Source: a virus. From it: DNA of 64,000 nucleotides. Shown in pieces: positions 7,353-40,868 of the stretch (the first letter of the stretch is position 1; each line of letters starts with the position of its first letter). The stretch lies in IMG/VR virus record IMGVR_UViG_3300049434_000028, positions 1 through 64,000 of that record. One strand, given 5' to 3'. The notes below the pieces were generated by a model, which made no database searches, had not been told where the DNA came from, and saw nothing but the letters and a program-made list of their open reading frames with translations. A program made the translations under genes and the position numbers.

Positions 7353-9296
7353 CTAACCCTTAGCCTCGCTCCACCGCTGCACCACCTTGATGTCCGCCTC
7401 CAACGGCACCGGATGGATCAACTTCGCAATCTCCCAGCCGGTCATTGCCTCTTTGACGACATCAACCCCCTCCTTGATGAGGTCGTCCCTCACCGAGGTG
7501 ACCAGCTCGTCGTGAACCGTGAAGTTCATGACCATTCCCGGCCGCAATAGTGCATCCTCGCGCACGATGGCCAATTTCATCAAGTCCGCCGCCGAACCCT
7601 GAATCACTGCATTGACAGCCTGGCGCTCGGCGGCCATCCTCCTACCGAAACTGGAGCTGTTGATGTCCGGCAGCCGCCGCTTGCGGCCGAGCAACGTCTG
7701 CACGTATGCCGGACGGCGGCTGCGGCACCTCCGCACCACCGAGTCGCAGAACGCATACATGCCCGGCAGCATCTTTCGATGCGCACGCAGGAACTCCTCC
7801 GCGTGCTTCACGGTGACCCCGGACATGGACGCCACCTTCTCCACGCCAGCCCCGTAGGCCACGGCGAAGTTGGTGTTCTTCGAGACCGTGCGCTCGACCT
7901 TGGTGACGTCGTCCATGGACTTCTGGAGCAGCAACGAGGCGACGTACTGGTGGAAGTCCAGGCCCTCCTCGAACGCCGCCACGAGCCGCTTATCGCCGGA
8001 GTAGTAGGCCAGGATGCGGTACTCAACCTGGCTCCAGTCGGCCACGATCAGGGAGTGGCCAGGCTCGGCCACGAACAGCCCACGGATCCGCTGGCCCAGC
8101 TCTGTGTCCGGCCGCGGGATGTTCTGCACGTTGGGCTCGGAGCTGCTCATGCGCCCGGTGACCGCGCCGGTCTGCTTGAAGTTCGTGTGAATCCTGCCCG
8201 TGTCCGGGTTGTACGGCGGGGCATTGTTCCTGCTCTTGTCGGTCTTCTTGCGCTCGTTGTTGCCCAGGTAGCTCTTCACGTACGTGCTGGAGATCTTGTT
8301 GACCTCCTGGTACTCCATGAAGGTGTCGATCAGCGGATTCCCGATGTGGTGCTCCAACGCCTCCTTGTCGCAGCTCGGCGCACCGGTACCGGTGAACTTC
8401 TTCGGCCGGAGGCCCTGGCCACCGTCCCGCTTCTTGCCGTAGAAAACCTCGACCTTCTGCGGGTTGCTGTTGAAGTTCCACTGGCGGCCGACGACGCGGT
8501 AGAGGCGGCCGGTGATCTCGGTGAGCTGCTCGTCCAGGTCACGGTCCAGCTCACGCAGCGCGTCGATGTCGACGAGCGGCGAGCCCGCGGCCTCCATGCG
8601 GCACAGCGCGCCGAGCAAGTCCATCTCCAGCTCGAAGAGCTGCCAGAGCCCGCCACGGTGGAGCTGCGGCACGTACTTGTTCTTCAGCAGGTGCGTGTAC
8701 TTGGCGTCCAGGAAGCCGTAGTTGGCCGCGACCTTGAACGGGTACCTCTCAACCTCCTTGCCGACGCTCTTGTCGTACACGAAGCCGAAGTCCCGCTTCA
8801 CGACGTCGCCGAGCCGGTAGGTGTGGAAGTTCTCGTTGCACAAGTACGCCGCGACCATCGTGTCCCCGTACGGCGGGAGCGGGAAGTCGCCGTCGTAGTA
8901 CTTGGCGACGCTCTCCAGGTCGAACTTCAGGTTGTGGCCCCAGAGCCGCTGGTCCTCATCGCGCTCGAAGAACAACGGTTCCAGGATCTCGAACACGTCG
9001 CCGGGGTAGAGCTGCTCCGGCGCGGCATTGTAGAGCGGGATCTTAAACATCCGCGTCTTGCCGTCCTGGCCGACGCGTGGTTCCTTGCCGATGCCGATCT
9101 GACGCCCAATCGGATGCCCGAACGGAATGACATCCGCGCGTCCCTGCGCAGCCAGGCTGAGCCAGAACACCTGGTTGCGCCGGGGGTCCAGCCGGTACTC
9201 GCCCTTGGTCTCGGTGTCGTAGGTGATGTCCGGCTGGTCCAGGTAGAACTTGACGGCCTCGCGCAGCGTGCGCTTGTCCAGGATCGGCTTGGTCAC
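7353..9296 (-). CDS. Family A DNA polymerase (Pol I type) with 3'-5' exonuclease
   Basis: 647 residues from GTG 9296 (GTGA overlap with the previous gene). N-terminal DEDD exonuclease: DITYDTETKGEYR (D-x-E), WGHNLKFDLESVAKY and DTMVAAYLCNEN. Polymerase motifs: A, VADWSQVEYRILAYYSGD; B, VSKNTNFAVAYGAGVEK; C, FTVHDELV near the C-terminus. There is no 5'-3' exonuclease domain, so length fits replicative phage Pol I enzymes. It is the likely replicative polymerase with the DnaB-type helicase and primase encoded on the other strand. Confidence 0.95.
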   Translation of the reverse strand: MTKPILDKRTLREAVKFYLDQPDITYDTETKGEYRLDPRRNQVFWLSLAAQGRADVIPFGHPIGRQIGIGKEPRVGQDGKTRMFKIPLYNAAPEQLYPGDVFEILEPLFFERDEDQRLWGHNLKFDLESVAKYYDGDFPLPPYGDTMVAAYLCNENFHTYRLGDVVKRDFGFVYDKSVGKEVERYPFKVAANYGFLDAKYTHLLKNKYVPQLHRGGLWQLFELEMDLLGALCRMEAAGSPLVDIDALRELDRDLDEQLTEITGRLYRVVGRQWNFNSNPQKVEVFYGKKRDGGQGLRPKKFTGTGAPSCDKEALEHHIGNPLIDTFMEYQEVNKISSTYVKSYLGNNERKKTDKSRNNAPPYNPDTGRIHTNFKQTGAVTGRMSSSEPNVQNIPRPDTELGQRIRGLFVAEPGHSLIVADWSQVEYRILAYYSGDKRLVAAFEEGLDFHQYVASLLLQKSMDDVTKVERTVSKNTNFAVAYGAGVEKVASMSGVTVKHAEEFLRAHRKMLPGMYAFCDSVVRRCRSRRPAYVQTLLGRKRRLPDINSSSFGRRMAAERQAVNAVIQGSAADLMKLAIVREDALLRPGMVMNFTVHDELVTSVRDDLIKEGVDVVKEAMTGWEIAKLIHPVPLEADIKVVQRWSEAKG

Positions 9297-9616
9297 AGAC
9301 TGAGCCCAAGCTGCACCTGGGCCGTGACCACAATGACCTCCACGCTGTGCTGGCCGAACGGGGTGTCCAGGACGACGCGGTGCATGACTAGCGCCTCGCC
9401 TTCGGCCAGCTCTGATGTCGTCGGCTCGTTGTCGTCCGCCTCGGCGGTGCTGATGAAGATCGGACCGACCGGCATGTGCCCGCCCATGTGCGCGCGGCGC
9501 AGGCACTCGTCCCAGACCATCTGCTCGAACTCCGGGTGCAGGAGAAGCTGCTTGGCCGCGCGGAACCGCAACGTGAATGTTCCGTTCTCGACGATCTCCT
9601 CGTACTGAGGGTCCAT
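9293..9616 (-). CDS. Hypothetical protein, 107 aa
   Basis: ATG 9616 is preferred over upstream in-frame starts because a GGAG lies 6 bases ahead of it. The product has a beta-rich pattern (NGTFTLRFRAAKQLL, VGPIFISTAEAD, ALVMHRVVLDT, SVEVIVVTAQVQLGLS) and no Cys. It ends in a GTGA overlap with the DNA polymerase, so the two are probably translated together. A polymerase-associated role is inferred only from this coupling. Confidence 0.65.
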   Translation of the reverse strand: MDPQYEEIVENGTFTLRFRAAKQLLLHPEFEQMVWDECLRRAHMGGHMPVGPIFISTAEADDNEPTTSELAEGEALVMHRVVLDTPFGQHSVEVIVVTAQVQLGLSL

Positions 9617-9699: not shown

Positions 9700-10698
9700 T
9701 TAATCGTCGTCATCCATGGCTGTGCGTGCAACGGCGTTCAGCTCCGCACGCGGCACGTACCGCACGTACTTGTCCTCGGTCACCATCTTGGAGTCGAACG
9801 CGTCCAGCTCGTGGTCCTTGAGCGGGGGGATCCCCCACTCCTCCTTCAGGTCACGCGTGCGCACTACGTCGATGTCGTAGGTGGTCGCGCCCTTGCCACC
9901 CTTCGGCTTGGTCTTGGAAACCGCGTAGTACTCCTTGCTCAGCGGGCCAGTCTTGGCGGCGGCCTTCTTCTCCAGGATCTGCGCGATACCCGGACCGCAC
10001 GCCCACACGAAGAGCTGGGGGTCGGCGTCCTCCTCCAGCAGCAACACGTTGAACGCACCCACCGCCCGCGGAGAGTCGCCCAGCTTGTCGCACAGCGGGC
10101 ACTTGGACTCCAGGCAGGTGTAGCTACGCAACCCCTTGGGCGTCATGATCCAGTGCTGCCCGAAACTCGCGAACGGCTCGTCGTCCAGGAACTTGATCAG
10201 GATCTGGTCGTCGTCCGGCACCTTGAGGTCATTGCTGAAGCTGCCCATGGTCTTTCGCTTCTTGTTGTACGTGTTCCAACCGGCCGAGGACTTCCGCTTG
10301 CGGGGCTCGTCGTCCTCGTCGTCCTCGTCTTCATCCTCGTCGTCTTCGTCATCCTCGTCGTCGTCCCGTGCACGGCGAGCCGGGCGCTTGGGCTCTGCAC
10401 GACCCCGAGAGCGGCTACGTGCCGGGGGCTCGTCCTCTTCGTCATCCTCGTCTTCATCGTCCTCGTCGGCGGCGGCACGGCCGCGACGGCGAGGGGGGTC
10501 CTCGTCCTCGTCGTCGTCCTTGGCGCGAGCACGCCGGGAGGACGCAGGAGCGGGCTCCGCGTCGCGCTCACGACGTCGCCGGGCCCGCGGGGTCTCCTCC
10601 TCGTCGTCGTCATCGTCCTCGACCGCTGGCTTGCGGTAACGGTCGGCGCTGGGTGCCGGACGATCGTCGCGGCTGCGGCGACGTGCGGGGGATGCCAT
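9700..10698 (-). CDS. Putative ssDNA-binding protein with long charged N-terminal region
   Basis: 332 residues from ATG 10698 with GAGGAGAA upstream. Residues about 1-155 are a disordered alternation of Asp/Glu runs and Arg-rich blocks. The folded part starts near 160 (GWNTYNKKRKTMGSFSNDLK), has a CLESKCPLCDKLGD Cys cluster, strand-rich segments (AFNVLLLEEDADPQLFVWAC, KEYYAVSKTKP) and ends in an acidic tail (MDDDD), like SSB/gp32-type proteins that use an acidic C-terminus for partner binding. Fold and position beside polymerase support the call; the sequence is too divergent for certainty. Confidence 0.6.
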   Translation of the reverse strand: MASPARRRSRDDRPAPSADRYRKPAVEDDDDDEEETPRARRRRERDAEPAPASSRRARAKDDDEDEDPPRRRGRAAADEDDEDEDDEEDEPPARSRSRGRAEPKRPARRARDDDEDDEDDEDEDEDDEDDEPRKRKSSAGWNTYNKKRKTMGSFSNDLKVPDDDQILIKFLDDEPFASFGQHWIMTPKGLRSYTCLESKCPLCDKLGDSPRAVGAFNVLLLEEDADPQLFVWACGPGIAQILEKKAAAKTGPLSKEYYAVSKTKPKGGKGATTYDIDVVRTRDLKEEWGIPPLKDHELDAFDSKMVTEDKYVRYVPRAELNAVARTAMDDDD

Positions 10699-10955
10699 CA
10701 AGTTCTCCTCTTCCTGGTCCGTGAACGATGCTCCGTGAAGCTGTCCAACAGGACCGTCTGGTCTGCGGTGGTCAACTCGCGTGCTTCCTTGATCTCTCCG
10801 GCGAGCTGGCGGTCCAGGATCTCCATCACCTTGTCAGTGAGTTCCTGCACCAACTCGTCCACCGGGATGTCGTGCGCCTCCTCATCGGTGTACCCGAGGT
10901 CGCCGTGCTCCAGGGTGACCGTGCACCCGAACTGGAAGTGCTCATATTGGGACAT
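10698..10955 (-). CDS. Hypothetical protein, 85 aa
   Basis: ATG 10955 (MSQYEHFQFG) with AAGGTG upstream. One N-terminal beta hairpin (FQFGCTVTLEHGDLGYTDEE) and two amphipathic helices (VDELVQELTDKVMEILDRQLAGEIKEA), ending in basic residues. It overlaps the start of the ssDNA-binding-like gene in a TGATG, which suggests coupled translation. No family recognised. Confidence 0.65.
   Translation of the reverse strand: MSQYEHFQFGCTVTLEHGDLGYTDEEAHDIPVDELVQELTDKVMEILDRQLAGEIKEARELTTADQTVLLDSFTEHRSRTRKRRT
10715..10721 (-). promoter_or_regulatory. Leader motif CGGACCA
   Basis: TTCACGGACCAGGAAGAGGAGAACTTG-ATG ahead of the ssDNA-binding-like gene. The motif lies inside the C-terminal codons of the upstream 85-aa gene. 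Confidence 0.55.
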
Positions 10956-11903: not shown

Positions 11904-12415
11904 GACACCTCCTCGGCGAACATGGCGTCGATGTCATCGGCGGTGAGAGTCGGCTCGGGGGAGTCCTTCTCGCTGAAGTACAGCGCCATGATCTTGTCGT
12001 CCGACAGGCGCTCGGTGACGGTGACTACCTCGTCGTAGATACGCGCCTTCTTCAGCACCGCGATCACCAACGGCATCTTGTCGGCGTCGATCGTGATGTC
12101 GACATCCGTGCACGCCTCCAGGACGCCCTTGGCCTCCAGGATCTCGGTGGCCCTGTCAGGATCCAACAACACCTTTGCGCGCCGCTGCCTGCAGACCGCC
12201 GTGAAGCCGCCGATCGGCTCGTCGAACTCCAGCCACAGGGAGCCCTTGTCGTCCGGCTTCCCGGCCCGCTCCAGGATCCCCATCAGCTTCTTCTTCAACT
12301 CGCCGCTGCGCGACTGGATCGTCTTGATCATCGCGCGGTGACCGCCGAACTCCGTCAACAGCGGCGCCAACTCCGCAAGGGGGTCAGCCTTGGAACGCCT
12401 GGCAACGCGGGTCAT
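11873..12415 (-). CDS. Hypothetical protein, first gene of leftward operon, 180 aa
   Basis: ATG 12415. Mixed alpha/beta soluble protein: helical N-terminus (LAELAPLLTEFGGHRAMIKTIQ, ELKKKLMGILERAG), a strand segment (GSLWLEFDEPIGGFTAVCRQRR), then a helix rich in Asp/Lys (VDITIDADKMPLVIAVLKKAR) and an acidic C-terminal third. No catalytic motif. It is the promoter-proximal leftward gene, with two CGGACCA-type motifs in its leader at 12429-12447. Confidence 0.65.
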   Translation of the reverse strand: MTRVARRSKADPLAELAPLLTEFGGHRAMIKTIQSRSGELKKKLMGILERAGKPDDKGSLWLEFDEPIGGFTAVCRQRRAKVLLDPDRATEILEAKGVLEACTDVDITIDADKMPLVIAVLKKARIYDEVVTVTERLSDDKIMALYFSEKDSPEPTLTADDIDAMFAEEVSWAFVPREVK

Positions 12416-12428
12416 CTGGGGTCCTCCG

Positions 12429-12447
12429 TGGTCCGTGCACTGGTCCG
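12429..12447 (-). promoter_or_regulatory. Leader motif CGGACCA, two copies
   Basis: On the minus strand the motif occurs twice 12 bases apart, the nearer copy inside GCACGGACCACGGAGGA, where GGAGGA is the ribosome site of the gene starting at 12415. This is the only leader with a tandem pair. Confidence 0.6.
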
Positions 12448-12589
12448 ATCGGGTTACCTAACCACAGAGCACCGACAGTTTCGATGAGACACGCCAGACC
12501 GATTTCTGCTAGTTGCTCCCGCGGCCGATCAGTGCCAGGGTTGTACGGCACCCTCCCGTCGAGCCCAGAGACACCCGCTCGGCGAAGCA

Positions 12590-12596
12590 CGGACCA
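12590..12596 (+). promoter_or_regulatory. Leader motif CGGACCA, plus strand
   Basis: Within GAAGCACGGACCAGGTCACC, the same CACGGACCAGG string as in the recA leader but on the plus strand and 116 bases ahead of the initiator ATG, farther than the other copies. Confidence 0.45.
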
Positions 12597-12711
12597 GGTC
12601 ACCAGTCGGGGTCAAGATCCCGCCCCGACGAAGTGGGCACCGAACATGGCTGAGGGCCAGCGCGACGAACGCTGACCCTCATGACGCCGTGAAACGAGAC
12701 GAGTGGATTCT

Positions 12712-13656
12712 ATGGCATCACCAACGGGCGAGCGCAACACCATCCTCGTGTCGATCAAGAACGACTACCGGTTCGCCATGGTGCCGGACGCCCTGCTGGT
12801 CGACGGCGTATCCGACCGAGCCGTGCGCCTCTGGGCACTCCTCGCGCGAGCTGCCAGGGCCAATGCGTCCCCGACTCGTGCAGTCCTGGCCGAGAAGCTG
12901 GGTTGCTCTGTGGAGTCCATCGACCGCGCCGTAAAGGAGCTGGAGGCCCGTAGATGGCTGCAGCGCGTCCAACGCGGGCTCAACCGCGCGAACGAATACG
13001 TGCTCGACCCCACCCCCATACATGCGTCTGACGCCCCATCAATCGACTGGACGCCTCACGCGGGAGTCGTCACCCGTGACGACACCGGAGTCGTCACAGG
13101 TGCGGTCTCGGAGTCGTCACCCGTGACGACTCCCTCCTCTATAGAGAGAGGTTTAGAGAGAACTACTGCACCGGCCAAGAACAGGCCGGTGCGGCAACGC
13201 ACGAGCTGGGCCGAGAAGGAACCCGACGACAACGGCGAAGACGGCGGCGTTGCGCCGATCTCCGGCCGGACGAAGTCCAAGCCCCGGCGCAGGATCGGCG
13301 GACCGGACTCGGCCTCCGGCCTGGCGAAGACGTTCGAGGTGCTGGCTCGGGAGAGGTTCACCCGCAAGCAGCTCGCATTCGCGCAGTTCAACCAGGACGG
13401 CACGACCGGCGCGATCAACGCCTGGCTAGACGACGGCGTCTCCCCGGACACCGTGCGTGCAATGATCAAGGTGTTCCTGACCGAGCCGTTCCCCGAACGT
13501 GCACCGCTCTGGAAGACGTTCCTGGCCGCACGACACCGCCTCGCCGATCAGGCCCTGCAGGTCTCCAACGCTCAGCGCGACCCCGTGGAACGCTACAAGC
13601 GCAAGCCGACACCATCTGGATCACTGGACTACCGGGAGCGATTCCGCAATGGATGA
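12712..13656 (+). CDS. Winged-helix replication initiator-like protein
   Basis: 314 residues from ATG 12712; a GTG at 12703 in frame is an alternative. Residues about 10-105 form a winged-helix/DnaD-like DNA-binding domain: MVPDALLVDGVSDRAVRLWALLARAARA, PTRAVLAEKLGCSVESIDRAVKELEARRWLQRV. A disordered Thr/Ser/Arg linker follows, encoded by the iteron-like DNA at 13063-13133. The C-terminal third (ARERFTRKQLAFAQFNQDGTT, DTVRAMIKVFLTE) is helical and probably contacts the helicase loader. The next gene is a DnaC-like ATPase, so the pair mirrors lambda O and P. The iterons inside the gene support an initiator role. Confidence 0.75.
   Translation: MASPTGERNTILVSIKNDYRFAMVPDALLVDGVSDRAVRLWALLARAARANASPTRAVLAEKLGCSVESIDRAVKELEARRWLQRVQRGLNRANEYVLDPTPIHASDAPSIDWTPHAGVVTRDDTGVVTGAVSESSPVTTPSSIERGLERTTAPAKNRPVRQRTSWAEKEPDDNGEDGGVAPISGRTKSKPRRRIGGPDSASGLAKTFEVLARERFTRKQLAFAQFNQDGTTGAINAWLDDGVSPDTVRAMIKVFLTEPFPERAPLWKTFLAARHRLADQALQVSNAQRDPVERYKRKPTPSGSLDYRERFRNG
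13063..13133 (+). repeat. Three iterons, candidate origin core
   Basis: Tandem copies begin at 13063, 13087 and 13110 (24- and 23-base steps), each starting GGAGTCGTCAC. The first and third contain the dyad GTCGTCAC-CC-GTGACGAC; in the third the arms extend to 11 bases (GGAGTCGTCAC / GTGACGACTCC). The middle copy has lost its right arm. They lie inside the initiator gene, as in the lambda origin. Confidence 0.75.
13134..13192 (+). other. A/T-enriched stretch and hairpin next to iterons
   Basis: Right after the iterons comes the locally A/T-rich CTATAGAGAGAGGTTTAGAG segment (about 13138-13166), a plausible unwinding element, then a perfect 9-bp hairpin (GCACCGGCC, 7-base loop, GGCCGGTGC) at 13168-13192. 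Together they complete an origin-like layout. Confidence 0.6.
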
Positions 13657-14335
13657 GTCGTACAACCTCACGGACTACGAACGGGCGCTGATCCGTGCCG
13701 AGGCTCGCTGGCCGCGTGCGAAGCGGCTGGAGCACACTGGCATCCCGCGCCGGTTCTGGGACAAGACCTGGGACGACTACGAGAAGCTCCCCGAGACTGC
13801 ACGTATGCGCGCAGCGCTGATCGCGTACACGGACGGATTCATGGACAGCGATCCGCGCATGCATGGCGGACGCGGGTTCCTGCTGCAGGGTGTCCCCGGC
13901 CTCGGCAAGACGCTGGCTGCAGCAATCGTCGGCGTGACACTGTCCGACCAAGGCTTCCTGGTCCGGTTCACCACGATGGCCGGGTACATGGATCTCGTCA
14001 CCCGCCAGTTCACCCTGCAGCAATCGTGGGCGAAGTACGAGAACATCGACGCCCACGAGGAGTGGATGACCAACGACGACGCGCTGCGCGTCATGCGCAA
14101 GACCGCGCACCTGCTGATCATCGACGACGTCGGCAAGGAGCATCACACCGCCAGCAAGTTCGCCGTCGACTCCTTCGACTCCCTGGTGCGGCACCGCTAC
14201 GACCTCGGTCGTCCCGTCGCGATGACCACCAACGTCGCGCCCGACGACTGGCTGTTCAAGTACTCCGAGGCGATGGAGTCGTTCATCAAAGAGTCCTGCT
14301 ACGTCTACGAGGCCGAGAACACCGATGGCGACTGA
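13649..14335 (+). CDS. DnaC-like AAA+ helicase loader
   Basis: 228 residues from ATG 13649, overlapping the initiator stop by 8 bases. The N-terminal 70 residues include a helicase-interaction-like segment (PRRFWDKTWDDYEKLP). Walker A is LLQGVPGLGKTLAAAI near residue 78, Walker B is AHLLIIDDVGKE near residue 155 and sensor 1 is RPVAMTTNVAPDDW. Length and order fit DnaC/IstB-type loaders that place the DnaB-type helicase on origin DNA, here encoded at 16461-17747. Coupling with the initiator is consistent with an initiator-loader pair. Confidence 0.88.
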   Translation: MDESYNLTDYERALIRAEARWPRAKRLEHTGIPRRFWDKTWDDYEKLPETARMRAALIAYTDGFMDSDPRMHGGRGFLLQGVPGLGKTLAAAIVGVTLSDQGFLVRFTTMAGYMDLVTRQFTLQQSWAKYENIDAHEEWMTNDDALRVMRKTAHLLIIDDVGKEHHTASKFAVDSFDSLVRHRYDLGRPVAMTTNVAPDDWLFKYSEAMESFIKESCYVYEAENTDGD

Positions 14336-14693
14336 CACCAAGACGAAGGTGCAGGAGACCGCTCGCTACATCTGCGGGTTCTGCGCCACCGACAACTGTG
14401 GCTCCTGCCGCGGGGAGTACCGCAACGCCCGGCCGGGTGGCCAGTCCGCAATCTGCGTGCACGAACACACCAAGAAGGAGAGCGCATTGTCTGAGGACGC
14501 GTCAGAAAACGAACCGGGTCATGGCGTCCTGGTCACCAACGGCTACGCATATATACACGGGGACAGCGCACGCTTCCAGGCGCTCAACCTCGCGCTGGAG
14601 CACCACCGTCGCAAGGGCCAGTCCGAGAAGCCCGAGGACGTCGTGGCGACCGCCAAGATCTTCGAGGACTACCTGAGCGGTGCGGGCCAATGA
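14325..14693 (+). CDS. Cys-rich hypothetical protein, 122 aa
   Basis: ATG 14325, overlapping the loader by 11 bases. The N-terminal half has Cys residues in YICGFCATDNCGSCRGEYRN and SAICVHEH, enough for a small zinc or Fe-S site. The C-terminal half has a strand (GVLVTNGYAYIHG) and a helix (RFQALNLALEHHRRKG). It ends in an ATGA overlap with thyX. No family recognised; a metal-binding accessory in the replication operon is likely. Confidence 0.65.
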   Translation: MATDTKTKVQETARYICGFCATDNCGSCRGEYRNARPGGQSAICVHEHTKKESALSEDASENEPGHGVLVTNGYAYIHGDSARFQALNLALEHHRRKGQSEKPEDVVATAKIFEDYLSGAGQ

Positions 14694-15397
14694 CCGACGC
14701 GATCATCCGCACCGACATGACGGTGGACCTGGTGAAGTGCTCGGCGGACGACCTCGACGTCGTACAGGCCGCGCGGGTGTCCACCGGCAAGGATCTGGAA
14801 GAGGACGACGGCGGCTCGACCACCGGGTTGATCGGCTTCCTGATGAAGAACCGGCACGGCACGCCGTTCGAGCACAACTTTTTCAAGTTCCGCATCGAGG
14901 CGCCGATCTTCGTGTGGCGCGAGTTCATGCGGCACCGCATCGGCTGGTCGTACAACGAGACCTCTGGGCGCTATCGCCAGCTCGACCCGGTGTTCTACGT
15001 GCCCGCGCTGGACAGGCCCCTGGTGCAGCAGGGCAAGCCCGGCCACTACACCTTCGTCCAGGGCACCTACGAGCAGGTCGTGGAGACCAACAAGCTGTTG
15101 TGCGAGTCCTACATGGTCTCCTGGGACACGTACTGCAAGCTGCTGGACAACGGCGTGGCCAAGGAGATCGCTCGGGCCTGCCTGCCGGTCGCCATCTACA
15201 GCTCGGCGTACGTGTCCTGCAACGCCCGCTCGCTGATGGCGTTCCTGTCCCTGCGCACCAAGCGCGAGGGTTCGCTGTTCCCCTCGTTCCCACAACGGGA
15301 AATCGAGATGGTCGCGGAGCGGATCGAGTTCCACTTCGCGAACGCCATGCCCATCACCTACGCAGCATTCAACGAGTACAGGAGAGTCAGTCCGTGA
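14690..15397 (+). CDS. thyX: FAD-dependent thymidylate synthase
   Basis: 235 residues. The ThyX signature RHRxxSxNxxSxRY is present as RHRIGWSYNETSGRY near residue 85, and HGTPFEHNFFKFRIEAPIFVWREF precedes it. The C-terminal part has the ARACLPVAIYSSAYVSCNARSLMAFLSLR stretch used in dUMP and FAD binding. The enzyme makes dTMP from dUMP with methylene-tetrahydrofolate and FAD, supplying dTTP for phage DNA synthesis; length is typical. It starts in an ATGA overlap inside the replication operon. Confidence 0.95.
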   Translation: MTDAIIRTDMTVDLVKCSADDLDVVQAARVSTGKDLEEDDGGSTTGLIGFLMKNRHGTPFEHNFFKFRIEAPIFVWREFMRHRIGWSYNETSGRYRQLDPVFYVPALDRPLVQQGKPGHYTFVQGTYEQVVETNKLLCESYMVSWDTYCKLLDNGVAKEIARACLPVAIYSSAYVSCNARSLMAFLSLRTKREGSLFPSFPQREIEMVAERIEFHFANAMPITYAAFNEYRRVSP

Positions 15398-16460: not shown

Positions 16461-17747
16461 GTGGCCGTGAACATCGAGAAGTGCCTGATCTCCGCGGTCA
16501 TCCACGACGGCGAGATCAACGACGTACTCGATGCCAAGATCACCCTGGACTTCTTCGAGGACGAGGAGCACACCCAGGTCTGGACCTGGCTGCTGAAGCA
16601 CTGGACCGAGCACTCCAAGGTGCCGGACGAGTCCACGCTGAAGCGCAACTACCCGAACTACAAGCTGACCGCCACGCCGGAGCCGATCGGCTACTACATC
16701 GGCGAGATCCAGGCACGGCGCAAGTACACGATCATCATGGAGGCCATCCTCGCGGCCACCGAGCAGATGGAGGACGCGAACGACGTAGAAGCCGCCCTAG
16801 ACACCATCTCCCTTGGCGTCGCCGAGGCGCACGCGCAGGTCTCCTCGCTGAAGAACGACATCCTGACCCAGGACACCGACAAGTGGGCCGACCTCTACGA
16901 CGAGCTGGCCGCCCATCCTGGCCGACTACGCGGCCTGTCCACCGGCTACCGGGCGATCGACCGTGCCACCCGCGGAGTCCAGCCGGAGCAGTACATCGTC
17001 ATCGCCGGGCCGCCTAAGTCCGCGAAGTCCACGGTGCTGATGGACATCGGCATCACCATGAACGAGGAGCACAACGCGCGGGTCCTGCTGGTGTCGTTCG
17101 AGATGAGCCGCGAAGAACAGGCATCCCGGCACTACGCCATGCGTGCGAGGGTCGATTTCAACAAGCTGATGGAAGGCAGGCTGAGCAAGAAGGACATGCG
17201 CAAGCTGCACAACGCCCTGGACGACGTGAAAGAGTTCGAGGACTTCATCCTGTCCACCGACATCTCCGCAATGACCACGGTGTCCGGCGTGCGCTCGCAG
17301 GTCGAACAGGTCAAGCCCGACATCCTCTTGCTCGACGGTATCTACCTGATGCAGGACGAGCACGGCGAGCGGCCCGGCTCGCCGCAGGCGCTCACCAACA
17401 TCTCGCGCGGGCTCAAGCGCATGGCACAGGCCACGAAGATCCCGCTCATCGCCACCACGCAAGCGCTGGAGTCGAAGATCTCCAAGGCCCGCGGGATGGA
17501 GTCGTCCTCGGTCGGCTACAGCTCCGCGTTCGGGCAGGACTGCGACGTGCTGCTCGGCGTGGAGCGGGACGCGATCGACCCCGCCCTGTCCAACCTGCGC
17601 GTGCTGCTCTCCCGATCCGGCCCGACGGCCAAGACGCAACTCATGATCGACTGGACGACGAGCACGATCACCGAGCAGGAATGGGTCGACGACACCGAAG
17701 GCGGTGACGATGGCAAGGACTCGGACAACGCGCCAAAGACGTACTAG
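16461..17747 (+). CDS. DnaB-type replicative helicase
   Basis: 428 residues from a GTG start (16461; GTG 16467 is also possible). The N-terminal domain (EKCLISAVIHDGEINDVLDA) is the DnaB-like helical domain. The RecA-fold motor has Walker A VIAGPPKSAKSTVLMDIG near residue 183, RVLLVSFEMSREEQASRHYA (motif 1a), DILLLDGIYLM (Walker B) and LIATTQALESKIS (motif 3). It should unwind the fork as a hexamer, loaded by the protein at 13649-14335 and working with the primase that follows. Confidence 0.9.
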   Translation: MAVNIEKCLISAVIHDGEINDVLDAKITLDFFEDEEHTQVWTWLLKHWTEHSKVPDESTLKRNYPNYKLTATPEPIGYYIGEIQARRKYTIIMEAILAATEQMEDANDVEAALDTISLGVAEAHAQVSSLKNDILTQDTDKWADLYDELAAHPGRLRGLSTGYRAIDRATRGVQPEQYIVIAGPPKSAKSTVLMDIGITMNEEHNARVLLVSFEMSREEQASRHYAMRARVDFNKLMEGRLSKKDMRKLHNALDDVKEFEDFILSTDISAMTTVSGVRSQVEQVKPDILLLDGIYLMQDEHGERPGSPQALTNISRGLKRMAQATKIPLIATTQALESKISKARGMESSSVGYSSAFGQDCDVLLGVERDAIDPALSNLRVLLSRSGPTAKTQLMIDWTTSTITEQEWVDDTEGGDDGKDSDNAPKTY

Positions 17748-18726
17748 CGCTCGCGGTCCGGCCGACGTCGAGGCCGCCTGCATCGCGCTCGGCCTGGAGA
17801 TCCAGAAAGTCGACGACACGGAGGTGCACTGCGTCTGCCCCAAGCACCTGGAGCGGACCGGCAAGGAGGATCGGCACCCCAGCTTCAGTGTGAACCGGAC
17901 CACCGGCCTGATGGGCTGCTGGAGCTGCCAGTACGGCGGGACGTTCATGAAGCTGGTCATGGACCTGAAGTACCCGAACAACGCCTTCGCCGCCGCACGG
18001 TGGATCCGCCAGTTCGGGGTCGATCTGCAGGGCAAGGTCGAGAACCTCAAGCCCTGGGACCAGCGCAACCAGACCAACGTCCAGCACGACGACGATGACA
18101 TCGACATCCCAGGCCTGTATGCGATGTACACCGACCCACCCACCAAGGCGTTGGCGCTGCGCCAGATCTCGCACGAGGCCGCGCGGCACTACGGCATCCG
18201 CTGGGACGATCGCAAGCGTGCATGGATCACCCCGATTCACAGCCCCGAAGGAACGCTGCTCGGCTGGCAGGCGAAGGCCGCCGACGGCCGGTTCTTCCGC
18301 AACTTCCCGCAGGGGATCAAGAAGGGGGAGACGCTGTTCGGTCTCGCCCAGTTCCCCGCAGGCGAGCCAGCGATCCTGCTGGAGTCCCCACTGGACGTCG
18401 CACGGCTCTACACCGCGGGTTTCGAGGGCGGGCTGTCCAGCTACGGCGTGCACTTCACCGACGCACAGATGCGAATTCTGTCGGAGGTGACCGACAGGCT
18501 GATCGCAGCGTTCGACAACGACAAGGACGGCAGGCTGGCGAACAGACTGCTCCTCTACGGTGACCGCAAGGCAGGTCGCAAGGCGTGGGCCAGGACGATC
18601 AACACCTGGTTCCTGAACTACAACGGGATCACGGCCAAGGACATCGGGGAAATGACTGACGATCAGATCGAGTGGGCGATGACGCACGCACTGCACTGGG
18701 GCAAAATCGTGACGGCAGGGCTGTGA
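17710..18726 (+). CDS. DnaG-type primase
   Basis: 338 residues from ATG 17710 with GAAGG upstream (GTG 17704 is possible), overlapping the helicase end by 38 bases. Zinc-binding domain: EVHCVCPKH near residue 40, then RHPSFSV and MGCWSCQYGGTF. Toprim segment: AILLESPLDVARLYTAGF with the catalytic Glu, then RLIAAFDNDKDGR (D-x-D). The domain order CHC2-linker-Toprim is typical of phage primases, shorter than cellular DnaG and without the C-terminal helicase-binding domain. It makes RNA primers for the Pol I-type enzyme. Confidence 0.85.
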   Translation: MARTRTTRQRRTSARGPADVEAACIALGLEIQKVDDTEVHCVCPKHLERTGKEDRHPSFSVNRTTGLMGCWSCQYGGTFMKLVMDLKYPNNAFAAARWIRQFGVDLQGKVENLKPWDQRNQTNVQHDDDDIDIPGLYAMYTDPPTKALALRQISHEAARHYGIRWDDRKRAWITPIHSPEGTLLGWQAKAADGRFFRNFPQGIKKGETLFGLAQFPAGEPAILLESPLDVARLYTAGFEGGLSSYGVHFTDAQMRILSEVTDRLIAAFDNDKDGRLANRLLLYGDRKAGRKAWARTINTWFLNYNGITAKDIGEMTDDQIEWAMTHALHWGKIVTAGL

Positions 18727-37899: not shown

Positions 37900-40868
37900 C
37901 AGTCGCCACCCATCACTGCGGCGATGCGTGCATCGCTCTCCAACCTGCTGGCCACTGCCCCGACAAGCCGTTGCGCGTCGGCCACCGAACCGGATGCCAT
38001 CTGGATCGGCATACTCAGGTGCACGACGATGGAGCGAGCGCCCTGCACAGGCGCGGGAGTACCGCTCGTACCCTCCTTGCCGCGCCGCACGTAGTCGCGC
38101 ATGCGCTTCGCCGACGCAGCAGGAACGACCATCTCGCCGTGGTGGATCATCGCGAGCTGGTCGCCCTGGATGTTCCAGGCGCCTTCCTTGTACCAGTGCG
38201 GGCTCCGCGCCTGCCACTTGTTCCACGCGATGGCGGGCGTACCGTAGCGGCTCTTGATGTACTTCATGCCCGCGTCGATCTGGATGTGCGGGTCGGCCGA
38301 CTTCTTGTAGCCGTAGTCCTTCCACGTCGAGTTGAGGAACTGCGCGATGCCGTACGCCGTCGATACCGGGTTCTGCGCGGTGGACTTCCAACCGCTCTCG
38401 TGCTGCCACAGGGTGTCCAGCGAGGCCCACTGGTTGGCGCCCCAGCCGTAGGCCGCCATCCGCCCCTTCGCGTACGCACGCGGGTCACCGGACTGCGGGG
38501 TACTCCCCGCCTTGGCCGAGGAGACGCCAGCGGGGCTGGAGCCAAAGCTGCGAGGAGCGCTGCCGAGTGAAGGGCTGTACACGTCGACATCGTTGATGTC
38601 CTCCGACCACCCCTGGTAGGGCTTCCCCCATCGCCGGGTGATGTCGGAGATGCTCGCCTTGTCGATCCGGCCGTCGCGAACGAAGTCGTTCGTCCACACG
38701 TATCCACCGCCCGCGCTGAGCGCGACGTGGCCCTGCCCGCCGGTCCACCACACCGGAACGCCGGGCGGCGGGGTACCAGAGTGGCGCTTCCTCGTATGCG
38801 CCCAACCGATCGCAGCGGTCCCGTACTTGGACGGCACGCCCAACGCCATGCGTACGTCCATGAGGCACTTGTTGTGCCAGTTGGACGCGCCACTGCGGGA
38901 TTGCCGCTGCATCCACGAGAGCGCGGCTGCACCTCGACCCGTAGCCGACCCACTGTTCGAGCCCGTCAGCTTCCCCAGGGCACTGACGACCGCACTCCCG
39001 GAATTCCCTACGGCACCGACCTTTCCTACCTTCGACCCGGACCCCCCGCCCGGCGCCGCCATGTCGCCTACGCCGCCAAGAATGTCCTGCAGAGCGCTGT
39101 TTCCAGGGTCGCCAGGCGTGTTCGGTGTAGCGACCCGGTCCAAGCCCGCGGTTACCGCGTCGATCTCCTCCACCGATCCCGTGCCACCGCCACCACCGGG
39201 ACCGCCGTGCTCACCACCGAAGAATCCAAGAGCGCCGCCTACCAAGGCGCCGACGCCGCCGCCGATCGCGGTACCGATCCCAGGAGCGATCATCGTGCCG
39301 ATCATTGCCCCCGTACCGCCCATCTGGGCAGCACCAGTGACTACTCCACCGACCTTGTTCCTCGTCGCACTGCTGCCATCACCTGAGATCAGGCCGCCAG
39401 CAAGCGAACCGCCGAGGGCCGCCGCCGCGCCGATGCCAACGCCCTTCACCCGCGGAGACATCCCTATACGTGGGCGCGGCCCACCACCAGGTCCCCCGCC
39501 CGCGCCTCCTGCTCGGCCACCCATGATCCGGTTCATCGCGTACATGCCCGCGATACCGCCACCAAAGTTGCTCGCAGCACTCACTGCGCCCATGAGCGGT
39601 CCGGCCGCAGCCGCACCTGTGCCCATCACGCCGCCGAGGATCCCGCCCCCCGCGCCGAGCGCGGTGTTGAGGTTCCGGAACGCCGAGGCGGCTGCGTCGA
39701 CCTGCCGTCGGAGCTGAGGGAGCGCGCTGTCGGCCAGCTCCTGCTCAACCCCTGCCTTTGCCTGCGCCTTGCGCCGATCGGCGTCGAATACCGTGTCTCC
39801 GATCTGGCTCGCGCCCCCGCCTGTCTTGGACAGGGTGCTCGTCATCTTGCTCGAACTCGCACCACCCATCTTGCTGGCGGTCTCCCCGTAGCTGTAGATG
39901 AACTCCTGCGTGGATGCGTCGAGCCCGAGACTGCTCATCGTTGCGCGCATGTTGGAGCCCTCAGCGCGGCCCTCGTTCAACGCCTGAGCCGACGGCATCT
40001 TCCCGCCGTAGATCTTCTTCAGGAGCTGCTCGGCGATCTGCTCAGGAGTCTGCTTCACCCCCCCACTGCCGATCGTCTTGATGCCCATTGGCATCAGGTT
40101 GTAGTAGGCCTGCGGTGAGTAGAACCCGGTAGCCGCCGCTGCGCCCTGCTCATAGCTGCCGAGCAGGTTGCCAGCTCGTCCAGCGGATGCCTGCAGTTGC
40201 TGCGAAGCGCCGCTCATGCTAAGTCCCTGGCGCTCCCGAATGGTCTGCAGGCCAGCGAACGCGTCGGCCGAGCTGGTGTAGCCGGTCAGCCCACCCTGGC
40301 CAGGACCGCCGAACCAGGAGTGACGCGCCTGGCCCATGACCTGGTTGACGTTCCCCGAGCTGCCCCACGCGGTGAGCTGCGAGAGACGCTCGGCGTTGAC
40401 CCAGTTGTCGCGCTTGCTGTTGCCGTACGCAGCCAGCCCGCCGGTAACCGCCCCCGCCACCGCCCACTTCTGCCCCGTGCTCAACGAGAACCGAGAGTTG
40501 CCGCCGTTTGGAAGCGGCCCGCCGTCGTTGTCGCCGCCCGAGCCGCCTTGACCGCCACCGGTCATACCCGAACGACGTGCAGGTGCGGTGGCTGGCCGCG
40601 TGGAGAACGTCGAGTCCCCGCCATTCGCGCTGCCCCCGCCACCCGACCGACGGCCGCCGCCCATGCCCCCGCCGAGCGCGTCGAGCTTCGTGCCGTCGAT
40701 CTTCTTCAGCTCAGCGTTGAACTCTTTGACGTTCTTAACGAGCCGTTCCCATTGCTTGTTGAGGTTGTCCAGCGACTTCGTGTCGACCTTGAACCCAGCC
40801 GTCACCGTGCCAGCGCGGCCACCGCTGCTGCCCGCGCCGCGCCCTAGACCTGGCTGGTTCTCGGCCAC
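37899..40868 (-). CDS. Tape measure protein with CHAP-like and transglycosylase domains
   Basis: 989 residues from GTG 40868 with GAGGGAG upstream. N-terminal 60 residues are helical, followed by Gly/Ser-rich segments, then helices and hydrophobic Gly/Ala stretches (residues about 370-560) typical of tape measure proteins. Residues about 650-790 form a CHAP-like peptidase (SNWHNKCLMDVRMALGVPS with Cys near 667, VWWTGGQGHVALSAGGGYVWTNDF with His near 714). Residues about 800-905 are a lytic transglycosylase (ASLDTLWQHESGWKSTAQNP with Glu near 823, STAYGIAQFLNSTWKDYG). These probably cut the peptidoglycan during injection. Confidence 0.9.
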   Translation of the reverse strand: MAENQPGLGRGAGSSGGRAGTVTAGFKVDTKSLDNLNKQWERLVKNVKEFNAELKKIDGTKLDALGGGMGGGRRSGGGGSANGGDSTFSTRPATAPARRSGMTGGGQGGSGGDNDGGPLPNGGNSRFSLSTGQKWAVAGAVTGGLAAYGNSKRDNWVNAERLSQLTAWGSSGNVNQVMGQARHSWFGGPGQGGLTGYTSSADAFAGLQTIRERQGLSMSGASQQLQASAGRAGNLLGSYEQGAAAATGFYSPQAYYNLMPMGIKTIGSGGVKQTPEQIAEQLLKKIYGGKMPSAQALNEGRAEGSNMRATMSSLGLDASTQEFIYSYGETASKMGGASSSKMTSTLSKTGGGASQIGDTVFDADRRKAQAKAGVEQELADSALPQLRRQVDAAASAFRNLNTALGAGGGILGGVMGTGAAAAGPLMGAVSAASNFGGGIAGMYAMNRIMGGRAGGAGGGPGGGPRPRIGMSPRVKGVGIGAAAALGGSLAGGLISGDGSSATRNKVGGVVTGAAQMGGTGAMIGTMIAPGIGTAIGGGVGALVGGALGFFGGEHGGPGGGGGTGSVEEIDAVTAGLDRVATPNTPGDPGNSALQDILGGVGDMAAPGGGSGSKVGKVGAVGNSGSAVVSALGKLTGSNSGSATGRGAAALSWMQRQSRSGASNWHNKCLMDVRMALGVPSKYGTAAIGWAHTRKRHSGTPPPGVPVWWTGGQGHVALSAGGGYVWTNDFVRDGRIDKASISDITRRWGKPYQGWSEDINDVDVYSPSLGSAPRSFGSSPAGVSSAKAGSTPQSGDPRAYAKGRMAAYGWGANQWASLDTLWQHESGWKSTAQNPVSTAYGIAQFLNSTWKDYGYKKSADPHIQIDAGMKYIKSRYGTPAIAWNKWQARSPHWYKEGAWNIQGDQLAMIHHGEMVVPAASAKRMRDYVRRGKEGTSGTPAPVQGARSIVVHLSMPIQMASGSVADAQRLVGAVASRLESDARIAAVMGGD

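Follow-up and report, generated by a model that had tools for sequence, protein, structure and literature searches.

Organization of the initiator gene and its internal repeats

The DNA analyzed here, referred to as the window, spans bases 1 to 64000 of a 102,797-bp IMG/VR virus record (IMGVR_UViG_3300049434_000028; GC content, 65%), and our subject is a putative replication origin located inside the gene of an O-like initiator. An earlier reading, made from the sequence alone, had described this locus as a lambda-like origin composed of three iterons, an A/T-enriched segment, and a perfect 9-bp hairpin, all within a winged-helix gene directly before a DnaC-like loader. This arrangement was borne out (Table 1): all of the elements lie inside the initiator gene, and the initiator and loader genes overlap by 8 bp.

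Table 1. Features of the putative origin and replication genes around it (window coordinates)
Feature	Position	Strand	Remarks
O-like initiator, 314 aa	12712-13656	+	Winged-helix N-terminal domain, disordered linker, C-terminal loader-side domain
Winged-helix/HTH (residues 35-91), presumed iteron binder	12814-12984	+	Pfam HTH_36 5.9e-5, below cut-off
Iteron 1	13063-13086	+	Perfect dyad GTCGTCACCCGTGACGAC at 13066-13083
Iteron 2	13087-13110	+	Second half degenerate
Iteron 3	13110-13133	+	Dyad arms of 11 bp; reading frame differs from that of iterons 1 and 2
A/T-rich stretch, presumed DNA unwinding element	13138-13167	+	Rarest-codon window of the record
Hairpin	13168-13192		Arms of 9 bp and loop AAGAACA; directly abuts the A/T-rich stretch
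C-terminal helical domain (residues 201-289)	13312-13578	+	Resembles stand-alone pre-loader gene of Streptomyces phage pSt2308
DnaC-like helicase loader	13649-14335	+	phrog_50 3.1e-30; 33.5% identity to Streptomyces phage GiJojo loader
DnaB-like replicative helicase	16461-17747	+	Pfam DnaB_C 2.7e-33
DnaG-like primase	17704-18726	+	phrog_47 5e-37; Pfam Toprim_2 and CHC2 zinc finger

The three iterons start where they had been placed, at a spacing of 24 and then 23 bp. Iteron 3 is 96% identical to iteron 1 (23/24), compared to 71% (17/24) for iteron 2. Perfect copies of the dyad GTCGTCAC-CC-GTGACGAC lie at 13066-13083 and 13113-13130, and the arms reach 11 bp in the third iteron (13110-13133), as had been claimed; the dyad of the middle iteron carries three mismatches. 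No further dyad site with three or fewer mismatches was found outside the array in the whole record, and only two three-copy tandem arrays occur there, the iterons and, at 10307, a low-complexity repeat of acidic codons. Rfam returned only sub-threshold miRNA models for the dyads, which were judged to be chance matches.

Further analysis showed that selection acts on the DNA of this region, as two features indicate. First, iterons 1 and 3 are 47 nt apart and are therefore read in different frames, encoding the peptides GVVTRDDT and SESSPVTT, respectively, despite their near identity. When the gene was recoded synonymously 3000 times, the identity between them never reached 23/24 (maximum, 21), whereas the middle iteron alone, at 17/24 to iteron 1, was not significant in this test (P = 0.19). 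Second, the A/T-enriched segment that had been noted after the iterons, which spans 13138-13167, is 63% A+T compared to 34.5% for the record. No 30-nt window in the record has more A+T than the one starting at 13138, which shares the top rank. Its codons (TCT ATA GAG AGA GGT TTA GAG AGA ACT ACT) form the rarest of the record's 27,458 10-codon windows, with a score of 1.81 compared to 1.37 for the next.

The hairpin, GCACCGGCC-AAGAACA-GGCCGGTGC, pairs perfectly, and its position is repeated in relatives (see below). Hairpins with 9-bp arms are not rare in themselves, the record containing 7 compared to 3 to 12 in simulated sequence; the 41-nt stretch around this one folds better than all 200 shuffles of it.

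The initiator, for which an alternative GTG start is possible at 12703, matched phrog_270 (2e-7) and phrog_678, "replication initiation O-like" (5e-7), and is the sole phrog_678 match in the record. Its matches to phrog_678, _391, and _345 (5e-7 to 3e-3) are weak and lie in the N-terminal half, whereas lambda O scores 1.7e-35, 2.7e-39, and 5e-17, respectively; P22 gp18, like lambda O, matches phrog_678 and _345. In the AlphaFold model, only the HTH is predicted with confidence (residues ~35 to 91; pLDDT of ~86 to 94 at residues 31 to 80); a long disordered linker (~90 to 200) and a helical C-terminal part of moderate support follow. The segment coding for this predicted linker contains the iterons, A/T stretch, and hairpin. 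A fold search with the predicted structure gave nothing below an E value of 0.4, and a PDB sequence search gave no meaningful match. All of the sequence-level marks of a lambda-type origin were found at the locus, namely an O-like profile, in-gene dyad iterons, an adjacent A/T stretch, and a downstream loader.

Conservation in uncultivated relatives and hairpin covariation

No direct relative of the window initiator was found in INPHARED, PLSDB, or GTDB at the thresholds used or in IMG/VR searched by exact peptide words. A profile of the loader retrieved 80 IMG/VR loci, at least 9 of which share the initiator's C-terminal domain in the gene just before the loader. A profile of the C-terminal domains was too diverse for scanning; one built from six C-terminal-domain initiators retrieved 39 IMG/VR loci. 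This family (L097 to L135) consists of uncultivated phage contigs (up to 110 kb) whose initiators and loaders are related, and its initiators had no match in INPHARED or GTDB. As in the window, the related C-terminal domain lies directly before a related loader, and dyad iterons, A/T stretch, and hairpin lie in the linker. The iteron and hairpin sequences differ from those of the window, as does the loop (T[A/T]C compared to AAGAACA), and overall protein identity is ~23 to 28%. Conservation, which the sequence-only reading had named as a check, was thus seen for the arrangement in 39 uncultivated relatives and not for a direct, full-length initiator.

The winged-helix parts of these initiators fall into three sequence clusters, each with its own iteron type. 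A cluster of 25 loci has TGCAGAATCYGCA-like iterons (L116 without an exact pattern match), a cluster of 11 has TTCCGRAGACGG iterons, and L118 alone has three copies of AACCCGGAACGTGGTTC; two truncated loci were left out of these classes. The elements downstream of the iterons are common to all clusters. Such a joint change of winged helix and iteron type is what the co-evolution of a binding domain and its site should look like. In two loader relatives, the pre-loader genes (L014:5391-6776 and L015:5400-6779) encode long proteins, acidic and lysine/alanine rich, without a visible winged helix, and an initiator relative at L061:3409-4677 carries an insert, HNH endonuclease-like by eye, between the winged helix and the iterons.

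A linker hairpin follows the A/T stretch in 38 of the 39 loci, the remaining locus ending at the contig edge. The pairing of this hairpin covaries. In a set of 23 loci with 8 distinct hairpin sequences, 98.4% of the cells are paired, and five of the eight pairs vary on both sides. The covariation score was 0.661 compared to 0.258 ± 0.056 for shuffled sequences (0 of 500 as high), and structures slid along the alignment scored 0.22 or less. The count of both-side-changed pairs was not beyond the shuffles (50/500), which also yield such changes because the sequences are few, whereas the cell counts and the score were. The peptides encoded by the hairpin differ among relatives (IEETTFLPP, IGTTTLFPP, IEKTTSSPP, and RDTSYLQGD), so it is the pairing and not the peptide that is kept. 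Every loop reads T[A/T]C, corresponding to G[A/T]A on the opposite strand.

A survey of hairpins with arms of at least 7 bp in 59 non-redundant genes upstream of loaders showed some trends. First, 18 of the 59 genes have a hairpin within 60 nt downstream of the A/T maximum, compared to 0.034 per 60 nt elsewhere (P ~7e-13) and to 5 of 59 genes upstream of the maximum. Second, the loops are 3 to 4 nt long in 18/18 of these hairpins, compared to 111/253 in the background. Third, one strand of the loop has G first and A last in 15/18, compared to 14/111 background loops (P = 3e-9); this P value is optimistic because the 18 hairpins are partly dependent (L057/L255 and L020/L029 share hairpins) and the rule was noticed in some of the data before counting. 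The loop rule that we propose is G...A on one strand, 3 to 4 nt, closed by C-G, the window version being longer looped. GNA loops form very stable DNA mini-hairpins.

Comparison with lambda and other replication systems

The annotated iterons of lambda (NC_001416) start at 39034, 39054, 39078, and 39101, inside O and at a spacing of 20, 24, and 23 bp, and each is described as an 18-bp inverted repeat to which two O proteins bind (PMC6022878). The stop of O overlaps the start of P, just as the loader gene overlaps the initiator stop in the window, and an A/T stretch and then an imperfect inverted repeat follow the iterons. This repeat was reportedly noted in older lambda literature. Most of it lies outside the lambda origin as defined, 39034-39160 (PMC3349717). 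Other lambdoids (P22, HK97, and SEN22) resemble lambda and, in its putative origin, the window: the origin lies within the initiator gene, the dyad iterons are spaced 20 to 24 bp apart, and an A/T stretch lies downstream of them. The inverted repeat just past this stretch is also found in P22, where CCCCCTTACCCCCTAAAGGGGG is flush with the A/T stretch, and in SEN22 (GTCCGAA-AGTG-TTCGGAC). Iteron sequence varies among lambdoids over a common downstream stretch; close lambda relatives in IMG/VR were 99 to 100% identical and hence uninformative.

The window phage differs from lambda in several respects. Its iterons are of unrelated sequence, it has its own DnaB-like helicase and primase, its genome is at least 103 kb with a GC content of 65%, and its loader is DnaC-like (phrog_50) rather than of the P family (phrog_109). 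The likeness to the lambda O/P arrangement therefore stands for the order and spacing of the elements and for the adjacent loader and fails for the loader family, and the claim is accordingly worded as a lambda-type origin with a DnaC-type loader. Iteron plasmids likewise have initiator-binding repeats next to an A/T-rich stretch; the window is unlike them in that the repeats are dyads within a gene.

The closest known relatives of the helicase and loader are in Streptomyces phages (BRock, GiJojo, LuckySocke, Alone3, and pSt2308; identity of ~30 to 33%). Among the genes scanned in these phages, no O-like initiator profile was found, nor were dyad iterons found at the corresponding position, and the locus of Rhodococcus phage Finch likewise had no O-like gene among those scanned. 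A short pre-loader gene in the Streptomyces phages (L013:5520-5975, L009:5499-5975, and L010:5304-5765) is similar to the initiator in its C-terminal domain only, most clearly in pSt2308. These stand-alone genes suggest that the loader-side domain may be modular.

The first 25 kb of the window had no megablast match among INPHARED phages. Gene orientation switches from - to + at 12416-12711, coinciding with a change of sign in AT skew at ~12 kb. Three other open reading frames were noted nearby. One on the - strand (9700-10701), the source of the array at 10307, has Asp/Glu repeats and a Cys cluster and possibly encodes a single-strand binding protein. Another on the - strand (7353-9506) is long and by eye resembles family A DNA polymerase, and a third, on the + strand (14690-15397), has an RHR...SGRYRQ motif and by eye looks like a flavin-dependent thymidylate synthase.

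Alternative explanations and a proposed model for initiation

The alternative that survives best, though we consider it unlikely, concerns the hairpin alone, which would be a transcription terminator or an mRNA regulatory stem separate from origin function. In-gene hairpins can act in RNA, and the lambda A/T-rich stretch is T rich on the complementary strand. However, no terminator-like site was found on either strand in 12300-14400, and the A/T-rich stem of the relatives (GAAGAAAC...) would make a poor terminator. The relatives' stems also covary without G-T pairs, and the 3- to 4-nt loops are G.A-closable on the + strand in some cases and on the - strand in others, which fits a structure of DNA better than one of RNA.

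Much less probable is that the dyads are operators through which the winged-helix protein regulates its own gene from within. They do resemble the sites of dimeric HTH regulators, and the region lies ~350 bp into the initiator gene, with the loader gene 520 bp downstream of it. Yet there is no other copy of the dyad near the operon start or elsewhere in the record, and a search for sigma-70-type promoters found no promoter-like site in 12300-14400. Operators would leave the A/T stretch, the codon bias, and the hairpin unexplained, and in the relatives the iteron type tracks the winged-helix type, with the A/T stretch and hairpin being retained. A partition centromere or a host DnaA-dependent origin is more improbable still. 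Palindromic repeats also build centromeres, but the record, which may be incomplete, has no ParB_N match. Origins often contain DnaA boxes, but no such site (one mismatch allowed) lies within 7 kb of the array, their count across the window is at chance level, and TAG/CTA (DnaA-trio-like) triplets in the A/T stretch are not enriched over dinucleotide shuffles. Finally, the repeats could simply reflect the coding of a repetitive linker peptide, with no role at the DNA level. This fits iterons 1 and 2, which are in frame and both encode GVVT, and is contradicted so strongly by the out-of-frame iteron 3, the recodings, and the rare codons directly after the array that we give it almost no weight.

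Several points weigh against a lambda-type origin at this locus. The GC skew, which the sequence-only reading proposed to profile around 13.1 kb, is flat at 13 kb without a turn and lends no support. The window has three iterons, one of them degenerate, where lambda has four. The closest initiator, that of L016, shares only the linker and C-terminal half (residues 134 to 288), and an iteron array was not recognized there. Of the 59 surveyed loci, 41 lack a hairpin with arms of at least 7 bp, and the 7-nt loop of the window hairpin falls outside the 3- to 4-nt class of the survey. In all of the sequence tests other than GC skew, the lambda O/P-like origin was supported. From these we infer origin activity and put the probability that the window phage has a theta-type, lambda-type in-gene origin here at roughly 0.9.

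By analogy with the lambda initiation model (PMC5043065), initiation might proceed as follows. The winged-helix domain would bind the dyad iterons, probably with one initiator dimer on each, and the resulting complex would open the A/T stretch. The C-terminal domain of the initiator would then recruit the DnaC-like loader, which would place the phage's own DnaB-like helicase on the opened strand, and the phage primase would act next. The hairpin would mark the far edge of the opened region, probably as a single-stranded DNA structure that guides the loader or primase.

The lambda-type in-gene origin is itself an already known kind. What may be new is the hairpin as a functional third element, which the current lambda-origin descriptions that we compared leave out. 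In the openly accessible literature, no relevant account was found of such a hairpin element or of GNA mini-hairpins at phage origins. That a single-stranded DNA mini-hairpin right after the unwinding stretch, with its compensatory changes and loop rule, positions the DnaC-like loader or primase is a proposal to which we give slightly less than even odds.

To our knowledge, few origins have been located in large phages of high-GC hosts. Because the initiator, loader, helicase, and primase are encoded in one stretch, origin function could be tested with only a few purified proteins. The relatives amount to a natural experiment in which winged-helix and iteron types switch together, with the A/T stretch, hairpin, and loader-side domain retained, and the covarying hairpin is a concrete candidate for the element that places the loader or primase at lambda-type origins.
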